Source: an uncultured Treponema sp.
GTDB lineage: Bacteria > Spirochaetota > Spirochaetia > Treponematales > Treponemataceae
Assembly: GCA_934691925.1 (NCBI GenBank)
Contig: CAKUTI010000029.1
Location: 1 to 25,312, forward strand
DNA length: 25,312 nucleotides
Direction: 5' to 3'
The stretch's first letter is position 1, and each line of letters begins with the position of its first letter. Of the stretch, positions 94 to 17,151 are shown piece after piece. The notes below the pieces were generated by a model. That model was not told where the DNA came from and made no database searches. It saw only the letters and a program-made list of their open reading frames with translations. A program made the translations under genes and the position numbers.

Positions 94-141
94 AGGATAA
101 TATTTATCTAACGTTCGTTAGTATGATATTTTGAAAATTTT

Positions 142-222: not shown

Positions 223-234
223 ACTATCGTTAGG
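223..234 (+). repeat. 12-bp word ACTATCGTTAGT, 11/12 copy
   Basis: ACTATCGTTAGG, one base from the word found exactly at 1045, 2165, 3331 and 5128. This copy is intergenic. Confidence 0.55.
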
Positions 235-240
235 CAACAG

Positions 241-335
241 TTTTCCACAATTTAGTCACAAAATGTGGAAAAATTCTAACTAACGTCTATAAGTTTCACA
301 GAATTCTTTCCACTTTTCCACAAATTTTAAACAAA
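241..335. promoter_or_regulatory. DnaA-box-like cluster in the 94-475 non-coding region
   Basis: The word TTTTCCACA, one base from the DnaA box TTATCCACA, occurs at 241-249 (+), 264-272 (- strand) and 314-322 (+). The first two form an inverted pair. The 32-bp stretch 241-272 matches 16863-16894 at 28 of 32 positions with identical spacing. The third site runs into TTTAAACAAA at 326-335, as do the sites at 9996 and 16863. The rest of 94-475 is A/T-rich and holds the terminator at 142-173, an inverted CTAACG repeat at 108-121 and one copy of the CTATCGTTAG word at 223. DnaA binding is inferred from the motif. Confidence 0.5.
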
Positions 336-475
336 CTAACATTTGATTGTTGAAAACTAAACTTATTGATTATTGTTTGTTTCTTAAAGATTTTTACAAC
401 CGAGTGTTAGTCAAAAAAAAAATCAAAACTGCTTCTTATAGAAAAATAATCTTATTTCAAATAAAATATCCCGAA

Positions 476-1654
476 ATGAATTTCAGGAAATATTTCTTAG
501 TTTTGATGGCAATTTTCTTCTCGCTAGCATTCTCTTTTTCATCTGAATATATGGATAAATATCCTGATAATTATCCTGAAACGCTTTCGAAAGAGGCTTT
601 GATTTCCGTTGTCACAATCGACTATCCTAAAAATTCATACAAGTCGCTTTTCTCGAAAGCCGCGCTTAGAATCTATGACAAAAATTCTGGCTTTGACGAG
701 CTTATAGATTTTGCGCATTTTAAAAATTTTGACGACTCTCTTTTTTTTCTGAAATTTTATTTTAAAAGCCCCAAAGCGCAGATAATTTCATCCTCTTTCA
801 CAAAAGCGATTCTGAACGAAAATAACGCAGAAATCACAGACATAATCCTGAATCTTCCTTATGATGAAATTATTTATATTTACAATTTTTTGAAAAATCT
901 GCACGATAACCTGAAAAATTACTCGTATGATTATGACATTCAAACAAACAATTCCTACACGCATATCGCTGGAATTCTAAATGATGCGGCAAAAAGCAGC
1001 AGTAAAGCAAACGCAGATTATTCTTTTTACGATTATTCAAGAAAACTATCGTTAGTCCTAAAAAACGAAAATAGTCCAGTTCCAATAAAAACATTCTCAA
1101 CTGAAACCATAAAGACTCCACAAGATTCTGTCTCTTATAAACTTTCACTACCGAAAGTTAGTATTTCAAAAATTATTTATTTTTCAGTTTTCACCTTTAT
1201 GATTCTGCTTTTTACAGTCTACCTAACGCTCGTTATTTTTAAAGCAAATTTATATTGCGATGTGATTATAAAAGTAGGGCAGACTTTAGATTTTCTTATT
1301 CTGTTTTTCTCAGGAGTCGCAGGAACAGTAATTTTAATTCAGGATTTCATTTCATCGCAAAGCCTTTTTAGAAACAATTTCCAGTTTCTTTATCTTTTTC
1401 CGTTCAATATTATTATGGCGTTTAATCTTTATTTTTCATTTCTAAAGGAGAGATTTTTGCGTGCATATTGGACTGCAGTTCCAATTTTGACTCCGCTTTA
1501 TATTGCTTTCACTTGGATTAATTCGAGGGAATTTCCTCTTACAGATATTTTTATATCGTCTCCGATTTTTATACGTTCTGTATATTTTGCGGCTGATTTG
1601 TACATAAGAAAAAGCCAGACATCAAACTCACAAAGAATGACATCCGGCTTTTGA
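476..1654 (+). CDS. DUF4105/Lnb-like membrane protein with degenerate active-site motifs
   Basis: The 392-residue protein starts at ATG 476, where an N-terminal signal-like stretch (K5, then a hydrophobic run to about residue 22) begins. An in-frame TTG at 347 would add 43 residues that hide this signal, so it was not used. Residues 42-170 follow the pattern of the DUF4105 domain, the N-terminal periplasmic domain of Lnb-type lipoprotein N-acyltransferases: SLFSKAALRIYD at 57-68, then a hydrophobic F-x-L-K-F region, then SYDYDIQTNNSYTHI at 150-164. The C-terminal half has about five membrane segments, and DFLILFFSGVAGTVIL with a following N-x-x-x-L-x-x-x-P resembles the Lnb membrane part. The family normally shows FGH and NC-x-T; here these read FSK (59-61) and NNSYT (158-162), so the His and Cys are missing. 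It may be a pseudoenzyme or a relative with another role. Family placement is by eye. No clear Shine-Dalgarno was seen. Confidence 0.6.
   Translation: MNFRKYFLVLMAIFFSLAFSFSSEYMDKYPDNYPETLSKEALISVVTIDYPKNSYKSLFSKAALRIYDKNSGFDELIDFAHFKNFDDSLFFLKFYFKSPKAQIISSSFTKAILNENNAEITDIILNLPYDEIIYIYNFLKNLHDNLKNYSYDYDIQTNNSYTHIAGILNDAAKSSSKANADYSFYDYSRKLSLVLKNENSPVPIKTFSTETIKTPQDSVSYKLSLPKVSISKIIYFSVFTFMILLFTVYLTLVIFKANLYCDVIIKVGQTLDFLILFFSGVAGTVILIQDFISSQSLFRNNFQFLYLFPFNIIMAFNLYFSFLKERFLRAYWTAVPILTPLYIAFTWINSREFPLTDIFISSPIFIRSVYFAADLYIRKSQTSNSQRMTSGF
1045..1056 (+). repeat. 12-bp word ACTATCGTTAGT, exact copy
   Basis: Exact copy inside the DUF4105-like gene. It is read there as part of K-L-S-L-V codons. 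Confidence 0.7.
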
Positions 1655-1657
1655 TTT
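1609..1657. terminator. Possible bidirectional terminator between convergent genes
   Basis: AAAAGCC (1610-1616) pairs with GGCTTTT (1646-1652), overlapping the stop codon of the DUF4105-like gene and lying 27 bases from the end of the converging PPIase gene. The loop is long (29 bases) and the T tract is interrupted, so this is a weak call. Confidence 0.3.
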
Positions 1658-1680
1658 TAAAACTAGAACTTAGATAAAAA

Positions 1681-2718
1681 TTATTTTTTAACTTTTGTAA
1701 GCTCGACATCAAATGCGATGTAAGCTCCGCCCGGAATAACTCCAGGAATTCCGCCCTCGCCATAAGCCTGGCTTGGAGGAAGAACAATTGTTCTCTTTTC
1801 ACCGAGCTTCATATCCTGAACCATAATATCGAATCCCGGAATCATCTGTCCGCCGGCTGTTGTAAATTCAAGAGGTCCGCGACCTTTCGACTGGTCAAAA
1901 ACCTGTCCGTTCACAAAATACCCTTTGTACTCAACTGCGACAGCTCTTTTTCCGCCAATCTTGCTTCCAGAGCCTTCTTTAGTTGTCTTGAAATAAATTC
2001 CGTTAGAATCCTTATCGAACCCCGGGAATTTTGCCTCGACTTCCTTGATTTTTGCAGCTGACGCCGCTTTCTTTGCTTCCTCAGCTTTTTTTGAAGCCTC
2101 TGCAACAAGACTGTCAAAGTCAGCCTGTGTAGCCGTGAATTTTTCAGCATTTTCACCTTGACGAACTATCGTTAGTTTTAAAATCTTGTCATTCTGCTTA
2201 ATTTCATTCACTACTTTCTGGCTGTCCTCATTTACAACCTGACCAAAAATAGTGTGCTTGCCGTTGAGCCAGTCTGTCGGAACATGAGTGATAAAGAACT
2301 GTGAGCCGTTTGTTCCAGGACCTGCATTAGCCATTGCAAGGTAGCCCGGCTTGTCAAAAACAAGGTCGTCTCTACACTCATCTGCGAAACGGTAGCCAGG
2401 ACCGCCACGTCCAGTTCCCTCAGGGTCGCCGCCCTGAATCATAAAGTCAGAAATAACACGGTGAAAAGTAAGCCCGTCATAAAAATGCTTTCCTTTTGTT
2501 GCATCCAAAGTGCCTTCCGCAAGGCCTACAAAGTTAGTGACTGTAAGCGGCGTTTTGTCATAGAAAAGCTCCAAAACAATAGAGCCTCTTGAAGTTTCCA
2601 TAATCGCGAAAACACCATCTTTTCCTTTAATTGCGTTTAATTCCTTTTCCATAGAATTGCATCCTCCAAAACTGATTGCCAAGCAGCAAAATATAGCTGC
2701 GAAAATATTTTTTTTCAT
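1681..2718 (-). CDS. Dual-domain peptidyl-prolyl isomerase lipoprotein (cyclophilin + FKBP)
   Basis: This 345-residue protein carries two unrelated proline isomerase domains, which catalyse cis-trans isomerisation of Xaa-Pro bonds in folding proteins. The start at 2718 gives a lipoprotein signal (K2-K3, hydrophobic core, SFGGC with Cys20 as the lipidation site). It has GAAGGAAG upstream and an ATGA overlap with the preceding stop codon, so the longer frame from 2742 was not used. A cyclophilin domain spans about 30-190 ([15 protein letters not shown], then GGPGYRF). A charged Ala/Lys/Glu linker likely to be helical follows, then an FKBP domain at about 245-345 ([42 protein letters not shown]). 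The protein is inferred to act on exported proteins at the membrane surface. Dual-family immunophilins of this order are known from a few bacteria including treponemes. It lies at the end of the leftward yidC-jag block. Confidence 0.92.
2165..2176 (+). repeat. 12-bp word ACTATCGTTAGT, exact copy
   Basis: Exact copy inside the PPIase gene, read on the minus strand within K-L-T-I-V-R codons. Confidence 0.7.
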
Positions 2719-3485
2719 TTGTTTGCTTCCTTCACAAACCATTTATAAATTGAATCCACGCGCGAGTTGAACGAGTCAAGCATCATATTCTCAAACAACG
2801 AAATTCTCGGATAAGAAGCCTGAACTAGAAGATAGACAAGATAATAATCGCCTTCGTCCACCGCGACGAGATTTATCTTCACATTGTGAGCTTTCGCCGC
2901 CGTTATAGGACCGAATTTCAGCGGTTCAAAATTGTCAAAATAAACGCTTACTTCTTTTTCTGTCTGCCTGTATTCAAGCTGGTAATAGCATTTTCCAAAA
3001 GAATTGTCGTCCTGCATACAATAAAGCGTCTTTCCGTCGGCAGAACCTTCAGTGTCGTCTGGAATAGGATTTTTGTTCTCTTTTGAATCCACAAGATAAG
3101 CATCGTGATACAAGACTTCCCATTTCTTATGACGGTTTGAATAATACTCAGTGCCTTTCATCGTGGAAATAGAGCGCAAAATCTTGGAGACTTTTTCAAC
3201 TGTCAATTCTGACTCAGAATTTCCGCCAAGAGATTTCTTGTCAAGATAAAAGAGCTTCTCAGTTGTAAGCCGCGGCTTTTCATCAGAAGTCCATTTTTTT
3301 ACCGCAAGCTCAGAAAGTTCTGTTTTCGGAACTAACGATAGTTTGGCATTATCTTTTGACAAAAAAACATTCTGCAGTTCGCCAGCAGCCTTTAATTTTT
3401 CCAAAGTTTCATCTGAAATGCTCTCAGAAAAAGAAAAGGCAGCAAATGAAAACAATCCTAGAATCAAAAATAATATTCTTTTCAT
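2715..3485 (-). CDS. Exported protein of unknown function
   Basis: A 256-residue protein with a typical cleavable signal peptide (MKR, then a hydrophobic stretch to about residue 18, FSFSES near the cleavage point) and no Cys suited to lipidation. The mature part is soluble-looking: an N-terminal helical segment ([20 protein letters not shown]), a central region with [20 protein letters not shown], a stretch [20 protein letters not shown], and a C-terminal region ending in a helix. No catalytic motif was recognised. The start has GAGG 7-8 bases upstream. Its stop overlaps the PPIase start by an ATGA, so the two are probably translationally coupled and may share a role in the envelope. It could belong to a treponeme-specific family; no function is proposed. 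Confidence 0.75.
3331..3342 (-). repeat. 12-bp word ACTATCGTTAGT, exact copy on the minus strand
   Basis: Plus strand reads ACTAACGATAGT. It lies inside the exported unknown protein gene and is read there as K-L-S-L-V codons. Confidence 0.7.
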
Positions 3486-3531
3486 TTTACTGCCTCTTTA
3501 AAATTTATTTCGAACTAATTTTTTGCAAGCC

Positions 3532-4233
3532 CTAGTAATTTCCCTTGTAAATCACGCGAACCTGCTTGTAAAGACCTTCGCCCTCGCTTTTTGTCTCAAT
3601 ATCAGAAAAATCATTGAGCGTAGTGTGGATAAGTCTTCTTTCAAAAGGATTCATAGGCTCAAGCAAGATTGAATGTTTTGTCGAGCGAACTTTGTCCGCA
3701 GTGTTGTACGCAAGATGAACGAGATTCTCCTCGCGTCTTACTCTGTAGTTCTCAGTATCGAGAATAACGCGGATTTCCTCGTGCCCAAGATGTCCTGCAT
3801 AGACATTAGCCAAAAGCTGCAACGCGTCAAGATTTTTTCCTTTTCGCCCGATAAGGATTGAAGAACTTTCAGACTTCATTTTAAGCCCGATTTTTCTTTC
3901 CTCGCGGAACATAACCTCAACTTCTGCTTCGTATCCCATTTTAGAAATAATTTCTTTAACAAAAGTTACAAGTTTTTCCTCGAATTCGCCCTGCGGAACA
4001 GGATCAGCGACAGCACGTTTAACAGAGCCGGAAACAGATTCTGTCTCGTCATATTTAACGCCCGGAGTCGATTCTTCTGTGTGAACACGGATTTTCACAT
4101 ATCCAGACTTGAACAAAGTTTTTTTCTGCGTCTCGATAATCTCAACATCAAACTGGTCGCTTTCAAGCCCAAGCTCTGAGCACGCTTTTTCAATCGCGTC
4201 TTTTTCAGTTTTTCCTTCAAATTCGTAAGTCAT
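3532..4233 (-). CDS. jag: Jag/KhpB RNA-binding protein (SpoIIIJ-associated)
   Basis: This 233-residue protein shows the three-part architecture of the family. A Jag-N domain covers about 1-50 (EFEGKTEKDAIEKACSELGL and KTLFKSGYVKIRV). A KH domain lies at about 90-160 with the RNA-contact loop GRKGKNLDAL. A C-terminal R3H domain follows (RREENLVHLAYNTADKV, then PFERRLIHTTL and the ending SEGEGLYKQVRVIYKG). The family binds RNA and influences cell division and envelope synthesis in other bacteria. TAGGAGA sits just upstream of the ATG. The gene follows yidC by 42 bases, the usual arrangement, which suggests a shared transcript and a link to membrane-protein insertion. The mnmE/mnmG/rsmG/parAB genes that often follow jag are not present here. 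Confidence 0.95.
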   Translation of the reverse strand: MTYEFEGKTEKDAIEKACSELGLESDQFDVEIIETQKKTLFKSGYVKIRVHTEESTPGVKYDETESVSGSVKRAVADPVPQGEFEEKLVTFVKEIISKMGYEAEVEVMFREERKIGLKMKSESSSILIGRKGKNLDALQLLANVYAGHLGHEEIRVILDTENYRVRREENLVHLAYNTADKVRSTKHSILLEPMNPFERRLIHTTLNDFSDIETKSEGEGLYKQVRVIYKGNY

Positions 4234-4275
4234 TTTTATCTCCTAAGAAGATAGTTAATTTATAAAAAAAACTAA

Positions 4276-6093
4276 CTACCGTTTGTTTTTACCACGTTTT
4301 ACAATTTTTATTTCCTCTTTTTTGCCTTTCATCATCTTGTTGATTACAAGCTGCTGGCCAAGCTGGAAAATATTGCTTACAGTCCAGTAAAGAAGAAGTC
4401 CTGACGGCGCATTGTAGAAAAGGAAGAAGAACAGAATCGGCATTCCGTACATCATCATCTTCATCTGGCCTGCGCTTTGACCGGCCGCCGCAGTTCCGCC
4501 GTTTCCAGTGATTTTTCCAAAAAGAAGCTGCGAAATAACGTAAATCACAGGCAAGATTCTGATTGTGTTCCAGCCAAGAATTGGAAGCCCACGAGAAAAA
4601 GTCTTTCCGATATGGTCGCCAGCTGAAAGGTCGTCAATCCAGCCTGGAACAAAAGCTGCTCCGCGGAATTCAAAGTAGTTGTTGAATAGATTGTACATCG
4701 CAAACAAAATGAAGAACTGGAAAAGCAAAGGAAGACATCCGCTCATCGGGTTGTAGCCGATTTCCTTGTACATCTTCGCAGTTTCCATCTGCATTTTCTG
4801 CGGGTCGTTCTTGTATTTTTCCTGAAGTTCTTTCATTCTCGGCTGATACTTCTGCATCTTCTGAGTTCCCTCAAGGCTTTTCTTTGTGATTGGGAAAAGA
4901 ATAAGCTTCAAGATAATCGTAAGAATTATGATTGAAACGCCCCAGTTTTTCACAAGCTTATAAATGTTTTCGAGACCGAATTTAAGGATAACCTCAAGCC
5001 AGCTCAAGAATCCAGATGTATTCAAGCTGTCGTCAAGGTGAGAGCCGCTGATTTTCCATTCATTGTTGTCCGCAAGATTATAGATTTTTAGCTCTTTCTC
5101 GTTTCTCGGTCCGACATAAATATAATAACTATCGTTAGTTTCTTTTTCTGTAAGAGCCTTTCGCTGAACTTTTATCTGAGCGTTAGCATAGTCGCCGACT
5201 TCAACCGCAGACGAGTAGTTTATCGCAGAAAGCATTTTGTCGCTGTTCAAAGGATAGATAATCATCTCGAAATACTTGCCTGCAAGAGCAGCCCAAGTCC
5301 ATTCGCGGTCATATTCCTTGGACTGCTTCTGGCCAAGAATGATTTTCTTAGCTTTCTGGCCGTTATAAGAAATAAACTGGCGGTTTTCGTAGCGGTTCTG
5401 CTTCGCGTTGAAATAAGGTCCAATCTGAGGCGCTGTGCGCAAAGTATACGCAGCTTTTCCAGAAGAAAGTTTCTTTACAAGAGAATCGCCGTCAACTCTT
5501 ACATCAAGCCGGAAAATATAATCGTCTTTCTTGAAAGAATATTCCTTAACAAGCGTGAATTTGTCAGAAGTTCCGTCTGAATTCTTAATCTCGTAGTTCT
5601 TGTAGAAGCCGATTGTGTAGTCGTCGATTTTCTTCACATTGAAAATGTCGTTTATGATTTCGTTCTCGTAGCCACCGAAAGAAAGCGCGAAAGCACGGTT
5701 TTTGTCAGAAACGTTGTCAACCATCTCGACACCTTTTCCAGTATCGCGGTCAAGATTTTTCAGGTTGCCTTTCTCGTCTTTTCCGACAAATTCATAGCCG
5801 ATTACGTCTCCGCCACGGTTTGTGAAAGTCACTTTTACCTTGTCGGTTGTGATTGTGAATTTTTCTTCTTCAAGAGTTTCTTCAGGATTCTGCTCGGCAA
5901 CAATCAAGCTGCCTGCCTTAGTTTTTTCAGATGATGAATTATCATCCTGAGTTTGTCCATTTTCTTCCGCAACATTCTGCTGGGAAGCCTGTTTTCCCGC
6001 ATTTTTATTAGGAAAAAGGAAAGTCTGGGCAGCAAAAAATCCAACAAGAACGACAGTTGAGAGCGAAATAGCCCAAATTGTATTCTTTTCCAT
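4276..6093 (-). CDS. yidC: Membrane protein insertase YidC
   Basis: This 605-residue protein inserts and folds inner-membrane proteins, alone or with the Sec translocon. It has the Gram-negative layout: an N-terminal membrane anchor (about 5-25), a Gln/Asn/Glu-rich linker, a large periplasmic beta domain (about 75-345), then the conserved membrane core. Core motifs include KNWGVSIIILTIILKLILFP with the conserved Arg replaced by Lys at the usual groove position, a charged coiled cytoplasmic loop (KMQKYQPRMKELQEKYKNDP), GYNPMSGCLPLLFQFFILFA, and a final segment APSGLLLYWTVSNIFQLGQQ followed by a Lys/Arg-rich tail. GGAG lies 5 bases before the ATG. yidD is 45 bases upstream and jag 42 bases downstream. 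The groove Arg/Lys remark is by eye and should be checked by alignment. Confidence 0.97.
   Translation of the reverse strand: MEKNTIWAISLSTVVLVGFFAAQTFLFPNKNAGKQASQQNVAEENGQTQDDNSSSEKTKAGSLIVAEQNPEETLEEEKFTITTDKVKVTFTNRGGDVIGYEFVGKDEKGNLKNLDRDTGKGVEMVDNVSDKNRAFALSFGGYENEIINDIFNVKKIDDYTIGFYKNYEIKNSDGTSDKFTLVKEYSFKKDDYIFRLDVRVDGDSLVKKLSSGKAAYTLRTAPQIGPYFNAKQNRYENRQFISYNGQKAKKIILGQKQSKEYDREWTWAALAGKYFEMIIYPLNSDKMLSAINYSSAVEVGDYANAQIKVQRKALTEKETNDSYYIYVGPRNEKELKIYNLADNNEWKISGSHLDDSLNTSGFLSWLEVILKFGLENIYKLVKNWGVSIIILTIILKLILFPITKKSLEGTQKMQKYQPRMKELQEKYKNDPQKMQMETAKMYKEIGYNPMSGCLPLLFQFFILFAMYNLFNNYFEFRGAAFVPGWIDDLSAGDHIGKTFSRGLPILGWNTIRILPVIYVISQLLFGKITGNGGTAAAGQSAGQMKMMMYGMPILFFFLFYNAPSGLLLYWTVSNIFQLGQQLVINKMMKGKKEEIKIVKRGKNKR
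5128..5139 (+). repeat. 12-bp word ACTATCGTTAGT, exact copy
   Basis: Exact copy inside yidC, read on the minus strand within E-T-N-D-S-Y codons. This is a different frame and peptide from the other copies. Confidence 0.7.
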
Positions 6094-10111: not shown

Positions 10112-11557
10112 TCAGCTTCCCTTGATTTGCTTTTCAAGAAGCTTCACCGTGTCGTTCATTGTCGAGTCGGTCTTTAGGAGGTCATCGATTTTTCTTATTG
10201 ATGACATTATCGTTGTGTGGTCTCTTCCTCCGAATTCCTCCCCGATGTCTGAAAGCGAGTATTCTGTCATTTTCTTGCAGAGCCAGACCGCAATGTGCCG
10301 TGGACCTGCGATGCTCTTGTTCCGTTTTGAGCTTTTTAGGTCGGCGATTGAGATGTTGTAGAACTCTGATATTGTCTTCTGTATTGACTCGACAGTCACA
10401 ACGTTTGAAGCCTGCGATGAGAGAGAGTCGCTTAGAAGCTCCTTCACCAGATCGAGAGTTAGCGGACGGTTCATAAGCTCCGCGTAGTTCAGGCTTTTTA
10501 AAAGCGCGCCCTCAAGCTCCCTGACATTCGACTGTATGTTTTTCGCGATGAATTCCTTTATTTCCTGGCTTATGCTTTTTCCCTGCAGCTCGAGCTTCTT
10601 GTCGATAATAGCAAGCCTTGTCTCGTAGTCCGGGGCTTTCATGTCTATACTTAATCCCGCAGTGAACCTTGTCTTTAGTCTGTCCTCGATTCCCTTTATT
10701 TCTGTTATAGGGCGGTCGCTTGTGAATACCAGCTGGCCTTTTCGGTTGTATATGTCCTCGAATGTGTAGAAAAGCTCGTTCTGGAGTCCTTCCTTGCCCT
10801 CGAGAAACTGTATGTCGTCGAGAAGAAGAACATCGAGCTTCCTGTATTTTTTAGTGAATTTGTCAATCGACTTTTCCCTGATTGCGGAAGTGAATTCGTT
10901 CATGAATGATTCTGTCGTCAGGTAGCCGATTTTCAGGTTCGGGCTGTTTTCATAGATGTAGTTTCCGACAGAGACCATCAGGTGGGTTTTTCCAAGTCCT
11001 GACGAGCCGTAGAGAAGAATCGGGTTTGTCGTTCTGGAGCCTGGAGTTTTTGCCGCGGCTATGCAGACCGAGTATGCGTACTGGCTGTTGTCTCCTGGAA
11101 TAAAAGTGCTGAAAGTGAATTCCTCATTTAGCTGAGGATGCTTGCTTGCGCTTTTTTTAGGAACGGAAGTTTCCTGAGTTCTTGTCTTTGAGAAATTTTG
11201 CGCAGTCTCGTTTTCAAATTTTTCAGGCTGCGGAATTTCTGCTTTTTGGGTCTGCGTTATAGGCGGAACAAATGCAGGAGGCTCTGCCGGCTTTGAGTTC
11301 ACGATATGTCTGATTGAGATGTTTTGTCCTGTAAGCTCATTTATCTTTTGCTGCAGCTTTTCGACATTTCCTTTCTTGACCATTCTTGTCCACATGAATT
11401 CAGAGGCTACTGAAACCGTTATGTCGGAAATCGTGTCTTCCACATATTCAAAGTTAAAGAAAAGCTTGAAATCGTTTTCTGTTCCGGCTGCAGCATATTC
11501 CTGATGAATCTGGTTCATCGCTTCTTCAAAAAAATCCTTGTAGTTTTGTTCAGACAT
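10112..11557 (-). CDS. dnaA: Chromosomal replication initiator DnaA
   Basis: A 481-residue initiator. Domain I lies at about 1-85, followed by a Pro/Gln/Lys-rich linker (about 88-140). The AAA+ domain has Walker A GSSGLGKTHL (184 onward; GGVGLGKT is more usual), Walker B LLLDDIQFLEGKE and the sensor/arginine-finger region GIEDRLKTRF. The C-terminal box-binding domain contains GPRHIAVWLCKKMTEYSLSD and FGGRDHTTIMSSIRKI. Initiation at the neighbouring oriC is its role. The start ATG has no Shine-Dalgarno and lies 7 bases after a perfect TATAAT, so the message may be leaderless. Divergent from gyrB. Confidence 0.98.
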   Translation of the reverse strand: MSEQNYKDFFEEAMNQIHQEYAAAGTENDFKLFFNFEYVEDTISDITVSVASEFMWTRMVKKGNVEKLQQKINELTGQNISIRHIVNSKPAEPPAFVPPITQTQKAEIPQPEKFENETAQNFSKTRTQETSVPKKSASKHPQLNEEFTFSTFIPGDNSQYAYSVCIAAAKTPGSRTTNPILLYGSSGLGKTHLMVSVGNYIYENSPNLKIGYLTTESFMNEFTSAIREKSIDKFTKKYRKLDVLLLDDIQFLEGKEGLQNELFYTFEDIYNRKGQLVFTSDRPITEIKGIEDRLKTRFTAGLSIDMKAPDYETRLAIIDKKLELQGKSISQEIKEFIAKNIQSNVRELEGALLKSLNYAELMNRPLTLDLVKELLSDSLSSQASNVVTVESIQKTISEFYNISIADLKSSKRNKSIAGPRHIAVWLCKKMTEYSLSDIGEEFGGRDHTTIMSSIRKIDDLLKTDSTMNDTVKLLEKQIKGS

Positions 11558-16376: not shown

Positions 16377-16392
16377 TGTTTCACGTGAAAAT
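16377..16392. other. parS: parS-like centromere site 1
   Basis: TGTTTCACGTGAAAAT matches the bacterial parS consensus TGTTTCACGTGAAACA at 14 of 16 positions, with the full TTTCACGTGAAA core. It is the predicted binding site of ParB/Spo0J, which spreads from it to drive origin segregation. Confidence 0.75.
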
Positions 16393-16598
16393 ATTTCGTT
16401 TAGTCTTTGTCGAAAAGCAATTTATTTGTTTTAGAAGAAAAAGAGTGAATGAAAAATATTTTTAGATATTTTTTTGCTTTAGAAAAAATAATGAATGAAG
16501 AATAGTTTTGTTGGATTTCGCTGAATAAAAGCCTTTTTATTTATTTTGCCAAAGATATTAAATTTTTGCTGTAATAAGAACGGGTGTTTTTACAAAGT

Positions 16599-16638
16599 TT
16601 TACTGGAAAGTCTTTCAGTAAAAAGCCGGCTTTTACTG
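16599..16638. repeat. Nested inverted repeats next to parS-like site 2
   Basis: TTTTACTG (16599-16606), CAGTAAAA (16617-16624), a 14-bp palindrome AAAAGCCGGCTTTT (16621-16634) and TTTTACTG again (16631-16638) allow two mutually exclusive hairpins. The second arm set ends where the parS-like site begins (16637). Its role is unknown. Confidence 0.5.
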
Positions 16639-16652
16639 TTTCACGTGAAACT
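16637..16652. other. parS: parS-like centromere site 2
   Basis: TGTTTCACGTGAAACT matches the parS consensus at 15 of 16 positions. It is the best copy in the window and lies 260 bp from site 1. Confidence 0.82.
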
Positions 16653-16829
16653 ATATTGAAAAAAACGTGTGTTTTGCAATAAAAGAGATATTTTATTAAC
16701 ATTATATCTCTGGCTTTCACAATCTAGCTAAATCAAATTTTTTATATTCATTTTTATAAATGTAGTTTCGATTTTATATTAAAAAGTTGTTCTTGCTTTT
16801 ATCACTAGGGGTTCTTAAATAAAATGCGG

Positions 16830-16845
16830 TGTTTCATATGAAACA
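16830..16845. other. parS: parS-like site 3, CATATG core
   Basis: TGTTTCATATGAAACA is a perfect 16-bp palindrome that differs from parS only in the central two bases (CG to TA). An identical copy lies at 16898-16913. Confidence 0.6.
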
Positions 16846-16846
16846 C

Positions 16847-16894
16847 GGTGGAAAACTTTTATTTTTCCACAATTTTTAAACAAAATGTGGAAAA
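16847..16894. promoter_or_regulatory. DnaA-box-like cluster between parS-like sites 3 and 4
   Basis: TTTTCCACA occurs at 16863-16871 (+) and 16886-16894 (- strand). A one-mismatch copy lies at 16847-16855 (- strand). Orientations alternate, so adjacent boxes form inverted pairs. 16863-16894 is the near-duplicate of 241-272. The remainder of the 16219-17225 non-coding region is A/T-rich and holds an 8-bp hairpin (AGAGATAT 16684-16691, ATATCTCT 16704-16711), a 9-bp inverted repeat (ATCAAAGTT 17106-17114, AACTTTGAT 17138-17146) and an imperfect 48-bp-spaced duplication near 16430 and 16478. No gene was found there. Confidence 0.5.
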
Positions 16895-16897
16895 GTT

Positions 16898-16913
16898 TGT
16901 TTCATATGAAACA
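16898..16913. other. parS: parS-like site 4, CATATG core
   Basis: TGTTTCATATGAAACA, identical to site 3 and 68 bp from it. The pair brackets the DnaA-box cluster. Confidence 0.6.
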
Positions 16914-17151
16914 ATTTTAGATTTTGCTTCTGCAATATGTTAATTTTTAAACTGCCAAGCGTTCGTTTGTGATTTATTTTTAATCTAACTAAGGTTTGTT
17001 AAAATTTCATGATTATTTTGTATTTTTCTTTGACTTTTTTGTTGAAAAGTTATTTAAGCTCTTTTTAAAAGAAGTTTGCTCTTCATTTATAACTAACGAT
17101 TGTGAATCAAAGTTTGTAAAAAAATTTATATCGCCTGAACTTTGATTTTTG

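Follow-up and report, generated by a model that had tools for sequence, protein, structure and literature searches.

The locus described here raises the question of why one short word, ACTATCGTTAGT, recurs in unrelated genes beside a bacterial replication origin. The window, that is, the whole stretch of 25,312 nucleotides that was analysed (uncultured Treponema sp., contig CAKUTI010000029.1), contains four exact copies of the word and several relatives in the first 5.2 kb of a dnaA-yidC-gyrA origin region. Comparison with related genomes indicates that a candidate TetR-family protein very probably binds to the word. As an overall reading, we consider it quite probable that the word is the core of a TetR binding site which serves to mark the origin region for division or segregation.

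An earlier sequence-only reading had listed exact copies at 1045, 2165 and 5128 (plus strand) and 3331 (minus strand) and an 11/12 copy at 223, all of which were found to be present. With up to 2 mismatches allowed, the window contained 13 matches (palindromic sites being counted on both strands) compared with a mean of 1.04 and a maximum of 4 in 100 dinucleotide shuffles, in agreement with the claim of more copies than expected by chance. The genes with exact copies, Lnb-like, cyclophilin/FKBP, DUF6675 and yidC, are unrelated and the encoded peptides are as previously described; the copies at 1045 and 3331 both encode KLSLV in unrelated proteins. The word forms the centre of a degenerate dyad (AACTA-N4-TAGTT) that is flanked by weaker half-sites on the outside. 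A single palindromic profile accommodates this dyad as well as the looser relatives pointed out at 108-121, 1223, 4270 and 17091; with it, 24 window positions exceeded 9 bits, compared with between 0 and 9 (mean 2.8) in each of 20 first-order shuffles, and the copy at 223 stayed below 9 bits. A maximal-order Markov search for over-represented words, restricted to the window, did not bring out the motif; it emerged when the origin and control stretches of T. ruminis were compared. The sites, scored with the position weight matrix (PWM), and the origin landmarks of the window are the following.

97..128, unstranded: motif site in the spacer-8 form (CTAACGTTCGTTAG), PWM 20.6 bits
223..234, plus strand: 11/12 copy of the word, PWM below 9 bits
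273..296, unstranded: motif site with one good half, PWM 14.0 bits
329..352, unstranded: motif site, PWM 15.3 bits
1039..1062, unstranded: exact copy (1045-1056, plus strand) in the Lnb-like gene, PWM 13.5 bits
1141..1168, unstranded: motif site in the Lnb-like gene, PWM 14.4 bits
1216..1243, unstranded: motif site in the Lnb-like gene, PWM 18.4 bits
2155..2182, unstranded: exact copy (2165-2176, plus strand) in the cyclophilin/FKBP gene, PWM 18.4 bits
3325..3352, unstranded: exact copy (3331-3342, minus strand) in the DUF6675 gene, 14.6 bits, flanks the same in 5 relatives
4265..4292, unstranded: motif site at the yidC 3' end, PWM 19.8 bits, position the same in 7 relatives
5118..5145, unstranded: exact copy (5128-5139, plus strand) within yidC, 21.4 bits, codons conserved in 8 sequences
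10112..11557, minus strand: dnaA (Pfam PF00308 and PF08299), GC-skew minimum nearby, which puts the cluster at the origin
16377..16913, unstranded: four parS-like sites (16377, 16637, 16830, 16898) with 1-2 mismatches, an element distinct from the motif and adjoining motif sites
16949..16976, unstranded: motif site, PWM 15.7 bits
16982..17005, unstranded: motif site, PWM 14.8 bits
17086..17109, unstranded: motif site holding the word with one mismatch (17092-17103), 12.6 bits

The window represents the replication-origin region of a gut/rumen Treponema, in which jag, yidC, rnpA, dciA, a recF-like gene, dnaN, dnaA, gyrB and gyrA were identified and the GC-skew minimum was located near dnaN-dnaA. 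The closest named relative by YidC was Candidatus Treponema equifaecale (77%). In the dnaA-gyrA core, between 5.2 and 16.9 kb, no site above 9 bits was detected. The four parS-like palindromes lie within 540 bp downstream of gyrA, and eight such sites (up to 2 mismatches) were found in the matching region of T. ruminis, at 54.3-56.4 kb; in both, the motif cluster touches the parS-like cluster. The word itself was rejected as a parS site, as its sequence differs and parS-like sites are present separately. The stronger ParB match of T. ruminis is encoded at 1.879 Mb, distant from dnaA. Three DnaA-box-like words, TTTTCCACA, were observed at 241, 264 and 314 (window 241-325), in intergenic DNA about 10 kb from dnaA and interleaved with motif sites. 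An Rfam scan gave no match at the gathering threshold.

The positions of three sites, within yidC, at the yidC 3' end and in the DUF6675 gene, are fixed between species and common to the window and 5 to 7 relatives. The yidC word of the window recurs at the corresponding codons in the relatives' loci L001, L002, L004, L005 and L044, and takes the form ACTACCGATAGT in L003 and L006. In these 8 sequences all codons of the word are fixed apart from the one that covers the dyad's free position, whereas fourfold third positions match the window in only 34-43% of cases. The codon evidence is weakened by other runs of identical codons in yidC (6 codons from residue 543 and 3 from 555). The 3'-end site (4265-4292) is common to 7 relatives and the DUF6675 site to 5, two of them with one mismatch. 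In the near relatives L007 and T. ruminis L027, the yidC word is lost and the amino acids are similar.

The genome-scale counts refer to the genomes of relatives (T. ruminis and G-numbered Treponema) rather than to that of the window. The exact word was detected in 8 of 68 loci of YidC relatives and in 12 of 15 whole genomes, with 53 matches compared with 6 for the reversed pattern; these 15 genomes were chosen partly because their loci carried the word. In the complete 2.9-Mb genome of T. ruminis all 10 sites with 0-1 mismatch were located at 10.7-129 kb, at most 90 kb from dnaA (45.5 kb). The sequence-only reading had named the lack of a genome-wide excess as a refutation. With 2 mismatches the word was not in excess over the whole T. 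ruminis genome (107 matches, 283 for the reversed control); the excess in T. ruminis is local to the origin, and a test for genome-wide excess would have misled.

When the 120-kb origin region of T. ruminis was compared de novo with 264 kb of its other DNA, the top 8-mers were AACTATCG (17 vs 0) and AACTAACG (19 vs 2). The expectation-maximization (EM) profile of the origin region resulted in a 24-bp dyad, AAACTAACKANCGNTMGTTAGTTT, which exceeded 9 bits at 106 positions in the 120 kb; control DNA contained 6 such positions in 160 kb and none in 60 kb. In held-out halves, 29 and 26 sites per 60 kb were obtained against 5 and 2 per 160 kb. This held-out test serves as the control of the motif, EM with the same seed on control DNA drifting to A/T tracts (121 'sites'). 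The T. ruminis sites span about 120 kb around dnaA with one weak site in the dnaA-gyrA core, between 37 and 54 kb, and 48 of 58 lie inside open reading frames (ORFs; crude calling), near the coding share of 90%. Of the 14 distinct sites of G049 (2.74 Mb in one contig), 12 were located within 60 kb of dnaA; the remaining two, at 1.41 Mb, fall within an mfd-like ORF (named by eye), which is not a regulator gene. A similar non-coding stretch of about 200 bp, rich in inverted repeats, was seen by eye on both sides of the G049 origin (L128:17738-18051, L126:14895-15253), each flanked by motif sites. The contig with dnaA held more than its share of sites in G072 (18/43) and G040 (11/26).

In the origin loci of the window and of other species (280 kb together), exact AACTA and TAGTT half-sites faced each other at 4 bp in 27 pairs and at 8 bp in 4 pairs; T. 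ruminis had 4 pairs at each distance, and no pairs at 4 or 8 bp were found in 220 kb of control DNA. The sole other notable distance, 22 bp (6 pairs), resulted from tandem sites at 18-bp steps, and tandem palindromes at such steps were detected in G013. A wider set of origin loci comprised 43 distinct spacer-4 and 16 spacer-8 sites. The 24-bp form AAACTAACKANCGNTMGTTAGTTT can be read as two 8-spaced sites that overlap with a shift of 4 bp, the inner pair being spaced at 4 and the outer at 12, which suggests, as a reasonable inference, that two dimers may sit side by side on origin sites. Base preferences outside the dyad were weak; an outer C was enriched beside spacer-4 sites (33 of 86 half-flanks, p = 7e-5 vs an assumed 20%).

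Operators of TetR-type regulators have a similar repeat architecture, and for this reason the TetR genes of six genomes were listed and their surroundings scored. In three orthologous TetR genes, those of T. berlinense (at L182:1009-1665), G049 and G042, the motif lay upstream of the probable start codon at a distance of 10-23 bp. The candidate, a protein of about 220 aa in gut/rumen Treponema, is encoded beside prfA and/or rsmI in T. ruminis-like species. A profile built from the three orthologues gave matches (E<=1e-12, partial and distant ones included) in 29 genomes out of 100 of the family, and in 17 out of 20 that had been chosen. The origin-trained motif profile scored above 10 bits upstream of 29 of the 43 recovered tetR loci. 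Among orthologues with E<1e-50 the operator was present in 28 of 32, or in 26 of 30 when those used in discovery were left out; the count was the same at 10 bits and at 12.8 bits (the latter read off afterwards). Since several of these genomes are close kin, the counts lack independence. The exact spacer-4 word was found in G071, 13 bp upstream of the tetR start codon. No operator was detected for 5 long-form and 5 distant TetR proteins. The recognition helix is nearly invariant among the orthologues and altered in the long form (L215-L218, L220; 262-279 aa), which also has a variable insert, and the genomes with the long form had 0 or 1 matches to the word pattern. In the 60 genomes covered by both surveys, the word was in excess in 10 of 19 with an orthologue and in 1 of 41 without.

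The N-terminal helix-turn-helix of the TetR family (PF00440) was scored for three members of the candidate, at 26.1 and 35.2 bits (cut-off 24) and at 21.7 bits, just under it. An all-helical TetR fold was found over the whole chain, and no ParB domain was matched in three members. The source names among the 120 of 946 homologues listed were TetR/AcrR family regulator only, and a plasmid search with the protein gave no match. After the TetR core follows a conserved C-terminal stretch, IRxNPxSGxGxLF (alignment A2, columns ~185-205), around which the model confidence is low; it is a possible partner-binding peptide.

Two other proteins were considered as binders and rejected. A second ParB-like protein (frames of 176-272 aa in T. 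ruminis, T. berlinense, G013 and G040) was near-identical across species by eye and looks mobile; a ParB-like protein of about 270 aa (L146:2501-3313, L147:2475-3290, L148:1284-2102), by eye nearly identical across Treponema species, is probably a mobile-element gene. The other was a tandem double-TetR protein, whose upstream palindrome is near TTACCGA-N3-TCGGTAA, although it scored 10.2-10.7 bits in two of three cases. This fusion of 407-422 aa is encoded beside a TolC-like gene at L162:1447-2715, L164:442-1665 and L181:1045-2310 (T. ruminis, T. berlinense and G049).

A number of results weigh against an origin marker bound by the candidate TetR. In G040, G041, G042 and G072 the sites are spread across much of the genome, and in G042 the origin bias is mild (8/21 within 300 kb, p=0.02; 12/21 in the origin half, p=0.33); the site count of G043 was similar to those of these four. 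The spacer is mostly 8 at tetR operators and 4 at origin sites. Four of the 32 orthologues are without a 10-bit operator, one of them in the word-rich G011; L205 and L209 of these have a visible palindrome with other inner letters, and L206 and L238 have none. Under the pattern used, word enrichment was absent in 9 of the 19 genomes with an orthologue. The co-occurrence test and the operator count ignore kinship. T. ruminis, the sole orthologue-less genome with word excess, barely reached it (18 vs 17), and no TetR orthologue was detectable in the searched assembly, though its sites defined the profile. RsmI, the neighbour of the orthologue in related species, had only a 27% match in T. ruminis, which means that the tetR stretch may be missing, masked or rearranged; the orthologue may also be truly lost. 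G014 has no TetR orthologue, yet its L016 locus is site-rich (5 sites vs 1.0 in shuffles). No division or segregation partner of the candidate was found.

These points give room to other explanations. The protein could bind the word and yet be a common type of transcription regulator with wide action; the sites at oriC would then be regulatory or tolerated decoys. An operator at the own start is typical of TetR repressors, and sites over much of the genome in G040-G042 and G072 would suit such a regulator. However, most T. ruminis sites lie within ORFs at near the coding share, strong sites stay within 90 kb of dnaA, and the genes beside tetR vary between clades with no obvious regulon. A local repressor would have no need of intragenic sites in both orientations that are kept over long divergence and crowded round oriC, and we hold this explanation to be unlikely. 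More doubtful still is that a different protein, for example of ParB/Noc type or with another helix-turn-helix, occupies the origin sites and that the TetR operator is merely similar. The prevalence of spacer 4 at the origin and 8 at the operator fits it, as does T. ruminis with its sites and no orthologue found. Against it, the profile trained on origin sites retrieved the operator of 28/32 orthologues, spacer-8 sites occur in origin loci too (16 beside 43 spacer-4), the G071 operator position holds the exact spacer-4 word, and the extra ParB-like protein, near-identical across species by eye, looks like a mobile-element gene.

The sequence-only reading had left open whether the word is a protein-binding or domain-organising signal, or an uptake word or small mobile repeat. 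A small mobile or amplifying repeat or a genome-wide uptake word is very improbable: the tandem palindromes of G013 and the dispersed copies in G040-G042 and G072 are of the kind it would produce, but base preferences past the dyad are only weak, T. ruminis has its copies in the origin region alone and G049 all but two of them, and at three places the position is fixed between species in spite of divergence at most synonymous sites. The protein-binding or domain-organising reading is supported by the clustering around dnaA, by conservation at the DNA level at orthologous positions and by a candidate binder whose own promoter region carries the motif. In the checks that had been proposed, clustering near oriC was tight in T. 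ruminis and G049 and mild in G042, and position between orthologous genes was kept at the three sites.

For the TetR origin marker the following course of events can be proposed. The protein would recognize the half-site AACTA in facing pairs, with a spacing of 4 bp at most origin sites and of 8 bp at most tetR operators and at some origin sites. As judged from the operator position just upstream of the start codon, it would repress its own gene. Dozens of mostly intragenic copies flank the dnaA-gyrA core beside the parS-like cluster, and through them the protein would be arrayed over the origin region. Most likely, the location of this region would in that way be signalled to the apparatus of division or segregation, similar to the action of SlmA and RefZ. 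Such a positional role is, by analogy, on balance likely. The chances appear even that gut Treponema independently recruited a further TetR-type origin marker beside parS to position division or segregation, a system of nucleoid occlusion or of an origin domain that descends from neither SlmA nor RefZ, with a site set that varies by species from a tight cluster at the origin to a dispersed one still biased toward it. If true, this would provide a defined protein, a DNA word and testable predictions on how long helical cells couple chromosome position with division, and would add a further TetR fold tied to chromosome geography beside SlmA and RefZ. Species with tight and dispersed site sets would be a natural comparison for the evolution of such maps. 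Among the papers listed in open-literature searches (titles and the starts of abstracts), none was seen that dealt with spirochaetes in connection with nucleoid occlusion or with an origin marker of TetR type.

The candidate is called SlmA/RefZ-like by analogy only, since its sequence scores were below the cut-offs of both: 15.2, 12.2 and 15.4 bits with the SlmA model NF007015 (cut-off 120), and 18.8 bits in one of three members with the RefZ model NF037937 (cut-off 180), the other two being unlisted. SlmA and RefZ were not among the 50 matches listed in either of two structure comparisons, which excludes neither. The host is a non-spore-forming spirochaete with dozens of sites, whereas RefZ of Bacillus has five motifs and a role in sporulation. 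Like the candidate, RefZ belongs to the TetR family and has near-palindromic motifs (RBMs) at conserved positions around oriC; as an analogue, the Treponema word shares this property, but two near relatives are without the yidC copy. RefZ is described as labelling parts of the chromosome for the division machinery by means of sites near oriC (PMC6657595). SlmA of E. coli/Vibrio, likewise a TetR-family protein with sites commoner near the origin, is described as marking chromosome regions for the same machinery, and a dimer-of-dimers on DNA is reported for it (PMC4117426). Noc of Bacillus, as presented in the same source (PMC4117426), is also a DNA-binding protein placed by sites more frequent near the origin; it is of the ParB family and the candidate of the TetR family. 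ParB-parS shares with the word the origin-proximal palindromes, but the sequence differs and both coexist. The SlmA site sequence differs from the Treponema word as well; SlmA itself acts by contact with FtsZ, through which ring assembly is blocked. The predicted Treponema sites are, as those of SlmA, enriched toward the origin, strongly in T. ruminis and G049 and weakly in G042, and they are set more tightly than SlmA's, about 120 kb around dnaA in T. ruminis and nearly all within 60 kb in G049. An extra protein binding near oriC is described for a spirochaete also in the case of ParZ of Borrelia burgdorferi (PMC9712426).

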